In this document: piece after piece, positions 14,974 through 17,880 of the stretch
Position numbering within the stretch: position 1 is the first letter of the stretch
How the letters are laid out: each line of letters opens with the position of its first letter
NCBI GenBank assembly: GCA_944326125.1
Contig: CALVCR010000002.1
Location: 1 to 33,615 of the forward strand
Direction: 5' to 3'
DNA: 33,615 nt
Source of the DNA: Candidatus Gastranaerophilales bacterium
GTDB lineage: Bacteria; Cyanobacteriota; Vampirovibrionia; Gastranaerophilales; Gastranaerophilaceae
The notes under the pieces: generated by a model
What the model was told of the DNA's origin: nothing
The model's input: only the letters and a program-made list of their open reading frames with translations
The model's database searches: none
Translations under genes and position numbers: made by a program

Positions 14974-15952
14974 ACAGAAAAAAAATTCACATCTTTGCTT
15001 TTTAATCGGCGGGAACAAGTATGCGGTTAATACCGGTAATGTTCTCGAGATTATGAAACTTCCTGCGCTCGATTACCCGCAAAAACTTGCAAATAATATT
15101 GTAGGACTTTTAAAATACAATAATTTTGTTATAAATGTTGTAGATATTCGTTTTTATTTAAACATGGAAGTTCCTCCGTACAGTGCAAACAATGAACTGT
15201 TAATTGTCAAGACAGATGAAGTTATCTTTGGAATTATTACCGATAAAATACTTGGTATTTCATCATTTGACAGCACAAGCGTTGACCCGATTCCTTTTGT
15301 AGACAATAAAATGGTCGTAGAATCGCTGTACAAACAAGAAAACGAAACGATTTTCATTGTAAACATATATGCATTAGAAAATCTTCTGAAACAACATGAT
15401 TTGCAATATACCGAGGTTGATATTCCTTCACTTTTCCCTAAAGATGAAGCTTCTAAAATGACTATGAAGCTTAGAACCCAGGCAATTGCGGAGAAGTCGG
15501 CGCTAAGACTTGTTCCCAGCGAACTACACGCCAAGAACAAGTATATTTCGTTTAATCTTAATGATGATTATTATTGTATTTCACTGGATTACGTAAAAGA
15601 AGTTTTAAAAGATACGTCCATCACAAATGTTCCGGGGACTCCAAATTTTGTTGAAGGGATTATGAATTTGAGAGGAGACTATATCACCGTTTTAAACCTC
15701 AAAAAATTTCTTGAAATTCAAGATGATGCCAAAAACGATAAACACCCTGTTATCATTATTAAATGTAACGAACTTAAATTAGCGCTGCTAATTGATAAAA
15801 TTAATGAATTATTTGAATTTCAGGAAAGTGAAGCAAATGAGATTACAGATAGTTATTACGCCGGAGAATTTATTTATAACAGAACCTTATACACTGTTTT
15901 GAATATAGACAAAATAACTTCTGATAAAAGAATTATTGTAACAGAGATGTAG
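14954..15952 (+). CDS. Tandem CheW-domain coupling protein
   Basis: 332 residues made of two CheW domains, about 10-150 and 185-330, joined by a linker. CheW couples receptor tips to CheA. The second copy keeps the EGIMNLRG block typical of CheW; the first is more diverged (NIVGLLKY at the same place). Two CheW domains in one chain could bridge receptor arrays or bind two kinases. The start overlaps the GGDEF gene by 20 bp in another frame, so the two are probably co-translated. A 6-bp hairpin (AGAGAT/ATCTCT, 15943-15959) spans the stop codon but has no T-run, so it is not a convincing terminator. Confidence 0.88.
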   Translation: MNSNYLEQKKNSHLCFLIGGNKYAVNTGNVLEIMKLPALDYPQKLANNIVGLLKYNNFVINVVDIRFYLNMEVPPYSANNELLIVKTDEVIFGIITDKILGISSFDSTSVDPIPFVDNKMVVESLYKQENETIFIVNIYALENLLKQHDLQYTEVDIPSLFPKDEASKMTMKLRTQAIAEKSALRLVPSELHAKNKYISFNLNDDYYCISLDYVKEVLKDTSITNVPGTPNFVEGIMNLRGDYITVLNLKKFLEIQDDAKNDKHPVIIIKCNELKLALLIDKINELFEFQESEANEITDSYYAGEFIYNRTLYTVLNIDKITSDKRIIVTEM

Positions 15953-15962
15953 TATCTCTATA

Positions 15963-16026
15963 CAGGTTGACGAGCGGAGATGTCTTATTTTACAATTGAA
16001 TAACAAATTTGCGCTTGTAGCTCAGT
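15963..16026 (+). repeat. Duplicated tRNA promoter and 5' end, upstream copy
   Basis: This 64-bp segment recurs at 16114-16177 with few changes, offset 151 bp. It carries TTGACG (15967-15972), an 18-bp spacer, TACAAT (15991-15996), a short leader, and then the first 16 bases of the tRNA (GCGCTTGTAGCTCAGT, 16011-16026). After that the tRNA sequence is replaced by 87 bp of GC-rich DNA (16027-16113) containing GCGGG-GTA-CCCGC and CCGC-GTT-GCGG hairpins. It reads as a promoter-bearing tRNA fragment that can no longer give a tRNA. Confidence 0.7.
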
Positions 16027-16117
16027 GCCATGCGGCGAGCAATGGGCAAGCCGAGCGGGGTACCCGCGAGGTGGAGTCGAGTCAACAGCGCCGCGTTGCG
16101 GGAGCAATGCGGGCAGG

Positions 16118-16147
16118 TTGACGAGCGGAGCCGTCTTAATCTACAAT
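16118..16147 (+). promoter_or_regulatory. Promoter of the tRNA-Arg gene
   Basis: TTGACG (16118-16123), an 18-bp spacer and TACAAT (16142-16147). Transcription should start about 8 bp before the tRNA, typical for a tRNA gene. The same two boxes at the same spacing occur 151 bp upstream. Confidence 0.6.
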
Positions 16148-16161
16148 TAAATAACAAATTT

Positions 16162-16240
16162 GCGCTTGTAGCTCAGTAGGATAGAGCGGAGGTTTCCTAA
16201 ACCTTGTCTGCCGTGGGTTCGACTCCCTCCAGGCGCACCA
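16162..16240 (+). tRNA. trnR: tRNA-Arg (anticodon CCU)
   Basis: 79 bases with encoded CCA. Acceptor GCGCTTG pairs with CAGGCGC, discriminator A. D-arm GCTC/GAGC. Anticodon stem GAGGT/ACCTT encloses TTCCTAA, anticodon CCT at 16196-16198, reading AGG. T-arm GTGGG/CCCTC holds the invariant TTCGA, with one T-T mismatch in the stem, and the variable loop has about 7 bases, slightly long. It has its own promoter and an immediate strong terminator. It is the only complete tRNA among several copies of its ends at this locus. Confidence 0.88.
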
Positions 16241-16275
16241 TTAAAAAAGACCGGATATCCGGTCTTTTTTAATGG
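16227..16275 (+). repeat. tRNA 3' end plus terminator, first copy of a 49-bp direct repeat
   Basis: CTCCAGGCGCACCA plus the palindromic terminator is repeated exactly at 16538-16586, offset 311 bp. A shorter third copy of the tRNA end (CTCCCTCCAGGCGCA) lies at about 16410-16425. Direct repeats of a tRNA 3' end are what site-specific integration into a tRNA leaves behind, although here no integrase lies between them. Confidence 0.75.
16240..16273 (+). terminator. Intrinsic terminator of tRNA-Arg
   Basis: A perfect 34-bp palindrome beginning at the last base of CCA: an A-run, GACCGGAT, ATCCGGTC, then a T-run. Being symmetrical it can stop transcription from both sides. An identical copy lies at 16551-16584. 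Confidence 0.85.
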
Positions 16276-16309
16276 TTGTCTTCTGATTGCAAGAATAGAA
16301 GCCACACAA

Positions 16310-16425
16310 AGCACAGCTTTGTCCGTGGGTTTGAGCGCGAGGCGGCAGAGAGCGTAGGTTCTTTGCGCAGCAAAGAACGAAGACTCGTTTAACGCCGCCG
16401 AGCAAGACACTCCCTCCAGGCGCAT
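16310..16425 (+). pseudogene. tRNA 3'-half fragment interrupted in its T-loop by a hairpin-rich insert
   Basis: CTTTGTCCGTGGGTT (about 16317-16332) resembles the tRNA variable loop and T-stem, and the sequence resumes as CTCCCTCCAGGCGCA at about 16410-16425. Between them are about 75 bp with nested symmetry: outer arms GGCGGC (16341-16346) and GCCGCC (16394-16399), inner perfect 9-bp hairpin GTTCTTTGC (16358-16366) and GCAAAGAAC (16370-16378) with loop GCA. The break falls in the T-loop. This could be a small mobile repeat or a structured RNA. Confidence 0.5.
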
Positions 16426-16498
16426 TTTTATTTTCTTTATCTTTCAATTGGGAGTCGAACCGCATTCTTGTTCCACAAGAAAGGGGTTCTTACCTCTC

Positions 16499-16527
16499 AG
16501 CAAACGTGACATTTAGTCACCTTTGCT
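16499..16527. repeat. Long hairpin between the tRNA-end repeats
   Basis: AGCAAACGTGAC (16499-16510) pairs with GTCACCTTTGCT (16516-16527) with one mismatch and a 5-base loop. A second perfect 7-bp hairpin (TTCTTGT-TCC-ACAAGAA) lies just upstream at 16465-16481. A stretch GGGAGTCGAACC (about 16451-16462) looks like an inverted T-arm. No full tRNA folds from these pieces. Confidence 0.5.
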
Positions 16528-16537
16528 TCGGCAGAGT

Positions 16538-16586
16538 CTCCAGGCGCACCATTAAAAAAGACCGGATATCCGGTCTTTTTTAATGG
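16538..16586 (+). repeat. tRNA 3' end plus terminator, second copy
   Basis: Exact copy of 16227-16275, including the palindromic terminator at 16551-16584. No tRNA body precedes it. It probably still ends transcription before the gene at 16624. Confidence 0.75.
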
Positions 16587-16623
16587 AAGAGCAAATTTTT
16601 TTATTACGAGGTTTCCAGTTAAT

Positions 16624-17880
16624 ATGAACACTCAACCTGTTTCAATAACTACATTTAAAGGATATGATGCGCGAGTTCTTAAGGGTTTCTTTATGAACAC
16701 AAATTGCTGCAATATTGCAAAAGAAATGCAAGCCATAGGGCAAAAGGAAGGATTTAAGATATTTTCTATTCATTCCGGACAAGGACATGCCAGATGTTTA
16801 GAAAAGCTGCCAGAATACAGGAGTGATTCCAATGATGCATGGGCACAAGACTCATGGACATTTTTGAAAGACAAACTTTTAGCTTATGAATTCTCTTCAC
16901 ACAGCAATGCCGTAAAAAAATTTTTTAAACTTAAATATGACGTCATTCAAAAAAATGAACGGAATATTCCATTTGTTCAAGACATAGCTAGAAAATTATA
17001 TGTTCTTCATAAACAAATACAGGGAAACAACTTTGATACAAATTATAACCCGCTTGAACGAGTCACATTAATGCAAGAATATAATAATACCAAGGATACT
17101 TACAAGACTTTTATGGATTCGACCCATATTCCGGGCGGAAACATTTTTATTACTCGGGATCGACTCCTCATAGGAGAAAATGAGCTAAAAAAATTCACCC
17201 AGGACGAACTAAAATCCATGTTCAATACAAACAAAATAACCGTATTGCCTCAGATGGATTTTCATTTAGACTTATTTATTCGTCCGCTTGATAAAAAAAG
17301 AATTCTTCTTACTGATGACAACCTTTCGCTTCAAACTGTACGAGAAGGGTACAGAAAACTTTGCGGATACCTGCTATCGCAGCCGGAAGAAGTAAGGCTC
17401 AAATATATGGAACCCGTATGTAAGATGGCATCTATACATGATAATTTTATGAAAGTAATAGAAAACAATAAATTTGCAAAAACAGAAGATGTTGAACAAA
17501 TACTTAAAAATAACGGATTTGAAGTAATAAAAGTTCCGGGAAGAATGTACAGTATCTGTGTAGATACGCTGGGCAAAAAAAGACTGAAACATTACTGCAA
17601 TTACATTAATGCAAATGCATTAATAAATAAAGACGGAGATTTAGTCTATATAACCAATAAATCTAATATTGATAACATGATGGGACTAACGCCGGAACTT
17701 TCAGAAAAAATAGGGTTTAGTTTTGAAAACACTTTTATAGAATCTATTTCACCTTATATAAAAAAAGATAAGATATATTTTATAACAGGTGATAATAACT
17801 TTATTGCATCGGAAATGCTGCCGGAGTTTCAGGGCGGAATCCATTGTACATGTGCAGAAATACCGGAGGACTTGGGATGA
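16624..17880 (+). CDS. Divergent agmatine-deiminase/PAD-fold (guanidino-modifying superfamily) protein
   Basis: 418 residues. Several blocks line up in order with agmatine deiminases and bacterial peptidylarginine deiminases: NDAWAQD (70-76) for the usual NDxWxRD, PGGN (170-173) for EGGN, HLD (214-216) for the catalytic His-x-Asp, a CNYINANALI segment (about 327-336), and GGIHCTC (404-410) for GGxxHCxT, placing a candidate nucleophile Cys at 408. Enzymes of this fold attack guanidino carbons. The Arg of WxRD is Gln, and the usual Glu before GGN is Pro, so the substrate has probably changed or activity may be lost. No signal peptide. The RBS (ACGAGG) is rather far from the ATG. It overlaps the next gene by ATGA. 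Confidence 0.6.
   Translation: MNTQPVSITTFKGYDARVLKGFFMNTNCCNIAKEMQAIGQKEGFKIFSIHSGQGHARCLEKLPEYRSDSNDAWAQDSWTFLKDKLLAYEFSSHSNAVKKFFKLKYDVIQKNERNIPFVQDIARKLYVLHKQIQGNNFDTNYNPLERVTLMQEYNNTKDTYKTFMDSTHIPGGNIFITRDRLLIGENELKKFTQDELKSMFNTNKITVLPQMDFHLDLFIRPLDKKRILLTDDNLSLQTVREGYRKLCGYLLSQPEEVRLKYMEPVCKMASIHDNFMKVIENNKFAKTEDVEQILKNNGFEVIKVPGRMYSICVDTLGKKRLKHYCNYINANALINKDGDLVYITNKSNIDNMMGLTPELSEKIGFSFENTFIESISPYIKKDKIYFITGDNNFIASEMLPEFQGGIHCTCAEIPEDLG

Follow-up and report, generated by a model that had tools for sequence, protein, structure and literature searches.

Why should a tRNA gene be surrounded by pieces of its own two ends? The window considered here is the whole stretch of DNA that was analysed, 33,615 nt from contig CALVCR010000002.1 of a Candidatus Gastranaerophilales bacterium (contig C2 of genome G000, an assembly of 1.72 Mb in 145 contigs with 38 tRNA matches).

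Partial copies around one intact tRNA-Arg(CCT)

The only intact tRNA in the window is tRNA-Arg(CCT) (Table 1). A 64-nt direct repeat, at 15963-16026 and 16114-16177, is 59/64 identical (92%), with 151 nt from start to start. Only the second copy leads into a complete gene, and the first runs into the 87 nt that separate the copies, a segment of high GC content with a strong fold. An earlier note on this DNA had described these features, and each was confirmed. It had overlooked that the 3' end of the gene is also duplicated, and twice: once as a 16-nt copy and once as a 49-nt copy (16538-16586) that, terminator included, is 100% identical to 16227-16275. One partial copy thus lies 5' of the intact gene and two lie 3' of it. 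This arrangement is best explained as a stack of three structured, gene-less inserts at a single tRNA gene, with one 5' and two 3' of it. For the first partial copy the earlier note had offered a small RNA, a failed duplication or an element inserted in the D-loop. The last of these fits, which leaves the note's interpretation partly supported: the insert joins the tRNA sequence at position 16/17, and it is one of a family of structured inserts present at many tRNA genes and also at tmRNA.

Table 1. Positions of the tRNA-Arg(CCT) gene, its partial copies and the inserts in the window
Feature	Position	Strand	Evidence
Element tail and leader, first copy, with TTGACG-18-TACAAT	15963..16010	+	64-nt repeat; present once at the corresponding position in G040
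tRNA-Arg(CCT) bases 1-16, copy	16011..16026	+	Repeat; own-end copy score 16
5'-side insert, core-2 family; closes with the second element tail	16027..16145	+	21 aligned relatives, compensatory changes
Aligned core-2 portion of the 5'-side insert	16034-16130	+	Core-2 alignment
Element tail and leader, second copy, immediately 5' of the intact tRNA	16114..16161	+	Repeat; leader motif analysis
tRNA-Arg(CCT), intact	16162..16240	+	ARAGORN; Rfam RF00005, 56.5 bits
Terminator-like hairpin, first copy	16237..16276	+	Repeat analysis
T-arm-like piece (CCGTGGGTTTGA) 5' of the 3'-side core	16323..16334	+	Direct repeat
3'-side insert of the core-3 family, with a long GC stem and CGAG ends	16335..16408	+	Sequence; relatives judged by eye
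Last 16 nt of the tRNA preceding CCA, copy	16409..16424	+	Direct repeat
T-arm copy, inverted (GGGAGTCGAACC)	16450..16461	-	Inverted repeat
Core-1 hairpin (ACTCTGCCGA...GAGAGG, minus-strand reading)	16493..16537	-	Pattern search, contig C2 of G000
tRNA 3' end, second copy (CTCCAGGCGCACCA)	16538..16551	+	Direct repeat
Terminator-like hairpin, second copy, 100% identical	16548..16586	+	Direct and inverted repeat

Recurrence at stable-RNA genes

Copies of a gene's own ends are not peculiar to this locus but recur in one group of gut bacteria. Among 159 tRNA records from four same-genus genomes, with 153 usable upstream and 147 usable downstream flanks, the gene's own 5' end was copied upstream at 32/153 genes and its own 3' end downstream at 30/147. 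When the ends of other isotypes were sought in the same flanks as a control, the corresponding counts were 8/1224 and 8/1176. All eight GACTAAATGTCAC sites found in G000 with at most one mismatch lie beside tRNA genes. Nor are tRNAs the only hosts: tmRNA loci carry units of the core-2 type, at one of them a tandem pair of 160 bp each, and core-1 is present at 5S-bearing loci. Units also stack in tandem and in mixed order (L450, L452), with two core families upon one tRNA at L452.

The units are gene-less and ~100-215 bp in size, and the intervals bounded by the copies span ~80-400 nt. Judged by eye, the order from the outside inward is a copy of the gene terminus, the core, often a resumed piece of the arm with a small hairpin, an inverted arm, a leader or trailer, and then the full gene. 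The terminus copy measures 11-20 nt at tRNAs and is longer at tmRNA. Units on the 5' side carry a substitute leader, and those on the 3' side a substitute trailer or terminator. An inverted copy of the gene's own D-arm (score at least 10) was present in 13/32 5' units, against 13/384 when the D-arms of other isotypes were used; for the T-arm in 3' units the counts were 6/30 and 7/360.

In 80 of the 115 stretches that contain core-1, this core was directly abutted by a terminus copy in 40/47 cases, against 7/399 in the comparison, and was oriented toward the tRNA at 38 of the 42 sites lying within 130 nt of one. It is read in the sense direction on the 5' side and in antisense on the 3' side. 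Within the same 80 stretches, no tRNA was detected less than 600 nt away from 43 of the 99 core-1 copies; 13 of these copies lie near the end of the stretch, and others lie at 5S or at intergenic repeats.

Certain genomes show a spread of core-1 into intergenic CCTCCC/GGGAGG inverted repeats (L129, L178, L185). At three further places (L138 at 2085, L147 at 449 and L179 at 2198) it sits within a conserved stretch shortly 5' of a protein start, which resembles a structured 5' leader and is possibly a riboswitch.

Structure and covariation of the cores

The inserts fall into a small number of families marked by strong compensatory base changes. The core-1 set comprises 96 distinct sequences, 49 of them 45 nt long, with 35 distinct stems; its variable stem is paired at 88.1%, against 65.7% in shuffled controls (maximum 70.7 in 500) in which sequence relatedness remains. 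The GCCGA/GA element of core-1 may be k-turn-like. No significant tendency of core-1 to lie at hairpin tips was seen (p 0.10 and 0.14). For core-2, 21 distinct sequences share 25 predicted pairs, 14 of which have compensatory changes on both sides. Paired cells reach 95.2%, against 80.0% in shuffles that retain relatedness (0/500 as high) and 30-44% in slid controls. By this measure core-2 is under structural selection.

Promoter-like and leader sequences

The two copies of TTGACG-18-TACAAT, reported as a promoter in the earlier note, are present (at 15967 and 16118), and a consensus scan of 15900-16640 found four promoter-like sites against 0.6 expected. The promoter assignment is doubtful. 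In most other core-2 copies the position of TTGAC is taken by TTTC, TTTTT or TCGG. Stem B, formed by TCAAC/GTTGA in the window, appears elsewhere as GAAAC/GTTTC, AAAAAC/GTTTTT, CCGAC/GTCGG or AAAAGC/GCTTTT, so that TTGACG coincides in part with the 3' strand of a covarying stem. The downstream part resembles a leader motif, 'ACAATTnAATA', that is found 5' of other tRNAs too. This motif preceded 17/32 occupied tRNAs, against 11/117 empty ones and 2/700 background windows.

Occupied and empty sites

We compared occupied and empty alleles wherever flank homology extended for at least 40 nt, which was so for 23/45 pairs on the 5' side and 9/51 on the 3' side; the remaining 22/45 and 42/51 lacked such homology and were unusable. 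In ten pairs, both flanks matched up to the exact tRNA terminus with zero gap on each side. Seven are 5' pairs (ArgTCT twice, LysCTT twice, AsnGTT, MetCAT and ProCGG) and three are 3' pairs (AsnGTT twice and LysCTT).

The window site itself differs between genomes. The 5' unit is present in G000 and G053; at the syntenic site of G040, where the cheW neighbour is kept, the insert is missing and there is a single tail and leader. This is the comparison with relatives that the earlier note had proposed. The cheW-tRNA order is kept in both G053 and G040. Orthology through cheW was also sought at cheW loci in 20 same-genus genomes in which the gene is conserved (L048 to L067), which include neither of these two genomes, and was abandoned there, no tRNA lying in the 1.5-kb flank. 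Where tRNA-Arg(CCT) lies elsewhere in the genome, G004 has a 5' unit and no core-3 unit, and G014 has neither.

Units at the same isotype are in many cases alike across genomes, with a mean likeness of 0.65 and a maximum of 0.93, against 0.53 for other isotypes, and the ProCGG site is occupied in G000 and G040 and empty in G053. Because of this likeness and this pattern, it is as possible that old inserts were precisely lost as that new ones were recently gained.

Several tRNAs of G000 lie within ~360 nt of a contig end (contigs C9, C17, C30, C45 and C85), which suggests that the repeats break assemblies.

Distribution of core-1

We searched for core-1 with the pattern ACTCTGCCGA-N18-34-GAGAGG, using the reversed pattern as a control. 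In the genus, all 58 genomes matched, with 371 copies, and the reversed pattern gave 0 matches. The pattern was present in 164/170 genomes of the family and 168/192 of the order. In a phylum sample it occurred in 125/131 genomes of the order and 0/161 outside it (subtotals counted from rows); outside the order, the reversed pattern matched singly in a few cases. Copy numbers per genome reached 78 in G144, 61 in G099 and 54 in G206, and six family members had none.

Interpretation and alternatives

The reading that we favour, with a probability of about 0.6, is that these are small, gene-less, site-specific elements, each carrying its own RNA-gene end together with a substitute leader or terminator. 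It brings together the recurrence at tRNA genes and tmRNA, the covariation of the cores, the duplication of each gene's own terminus beside an intact gene, and the precise occupied and empty alleles. Under such a mechanism the terminal gene segment would act like an attachment-site core, and the unit would enter or leave through recombination between the two terminus copies. The RNA gene would stay functional because the unit brings with it a gene end, leader or terminator of its own.

An unlikely alternative, though the strongest of those considered, is that the units are REP-like palindromes mobilised by a REP-associated tyrosine transposase (RAYT) through single-stranded hairpins. G000 encodes one intact RAYT (178 aa, NF047646, 148.9 bits; L024 1686-2222, G000:C42 7173-7541), directly after a tRNA-Met(CAT) that has a 5' unit and a core-1 variant. 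PF01797 was found in 10/18 high-copy and 1/18 low-copy genomes (Fisher p 0.0027, phylogeny uncontrolled), and 4/16 RAYT places in these high- and low-copy genomes had core-1 no more than 1.5 kb away. Within the genus, however, PF01797 is present in 33/58 genomes and missing from 25/58, whereas core-1 is in all 58; core-1 copy number showed no difference by RAYT (p 0.36; rho 0.26, p 0.047); and genus RAYTs had core-1 nearby in 2/30 cases by a strict count and 3/30 by a loose one. Repeats flanking a RAYT gene, which mark membership of REP/RAYT systems, are thus not the rule in either sample. Another such mark, a GTAG or CGTC tag at the palindrome end, is likewise not general here, TAG following GAGAGG directly in only 64/210 core-1 copies. 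As a dedicated mobiliser, RAYT was set aside, being unsupported in the genus and weakly supported across the extremes of copy number; as a candidate mobiliser it has mixed evidence.

Slightly less probable still is that the units are host RNA elements, active in leader or trailer processing or as regulatory RNA, and that they owe their spread to ordinary tandem duplication and gene conversion. A structure conserved through compensatory changes, a leader motif enriched before occupied tRNAs and the commonness of tandem arrays would all suit such elements. An element of the tRNA transcript would hardly be expected in antisense, as core-1 is on the 3' side, and units are absent from most tRNA genes. 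Folding at 29 loci gave no support for the idea that a unit insulates the tRNA fragment: pairing within the unit was 0.20, the same as in shuffles (0.20; p 1.0), and the acceptor was paired less than in shuffles.

That fold-back template switching at the hairpins of RNA genes produced the units during replication, with no enzyme involved, is improbable: it would account for the inverted D-arm and T-arm copies inside the units but leaves unexplained why conserved core families are common to several tRNAs and genera. Least credible is a one-off failed tandem duplication of this tRNA-Arg(CCT) followed by decay, which agrees with the partial tandem form of the 64-bp repeat and which is contradicted by the same core at other tRNAs and tmRNA, each with its own ends, and by core covariation, with core-2 under structural selection.

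Relation to known elements

Matches beyond the tRNA were sought in several collections. In the insert region the tRNA alone passes the Rfam gathering score; viral contigs gave 0 matches to the insert, and phage and plasmid records match over the tRNA only. Origin from an Rfam family, a phage or a plasmid was rejected, the matches being limited to the tRNA. SDR-type repeats of cyanobacteria, attributed to Elhai et al. 2008, are reportedly ~24 nt, tiny, gene-less and mobile, without duplication of RNA-gene ends. By this description, they are like the present units in being tiny gene-less mobile repeats of the same phylum, and unlike them in that the units duplicate RNA-gene ends.

Integrating islands and phages leave tRNA fragments (attR), and the elements described in PMC9897764 are ~9-23 kb and encode genes. 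Like these tRNA-integrating islands, the units place a partial beside a complete tRNA, leave the target intact and are bordered by a duplicated gene end (PMC9897764); a complete gene and a partial copy bound the insert, and a precise empty site is seen in the ten pairs above. Unlike those ~9-23 kb islands with genes, the units are ~100-215 bp and gene-less and occur on both 5' and 3' sides (PMC9897764). The ~80-400 nt intervals are too short for an integrase gene.

With REP/RAYT systems, as presented in PMC3733652, the units share the character of short palindromic non-coding repeat families, here order-wide and with RAYT in some genomes. They differ from those systems in having no universal GTAG/CGTC tag and a low copy number in many genomes, in their tie to RNA-gene termini with terminus duplication, and in an inconsistent link to RAYT (PMC3733652). 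Rickettsia palindromic elements, mentioned in the same source, are similar as palindromic inserts in genes that remain functional; unlike the units, they are in-frame inserts in protein genes (PMC3733652).

Among known kinds, REP-like repeats and islands that integrate at tRNA genes come nearest, and the units lack some defining features of each. A search of openly licensed literature with limited terms found no description of these elements. There is a fair chance that they represent a new kind. A fuller proposal, which we advance tentatively and at somewhat less than even odds, is a new kind of element on stable-RNA gene ends, built of its own terminus copy, inverted arm, structured core and replacement leader or terminator, and capable, through a putative enzyme, of precise, cost-free entry and exit at tRNA and tmRNA genes across the order.

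In practical terms, the units place false tRNA ends beside true ones. If they are mobile, they would be a system in which a new recombination specificity could be tested, and a parasite of ~100-200 bp could occupy essential single-copy RNA genes harmlessly.
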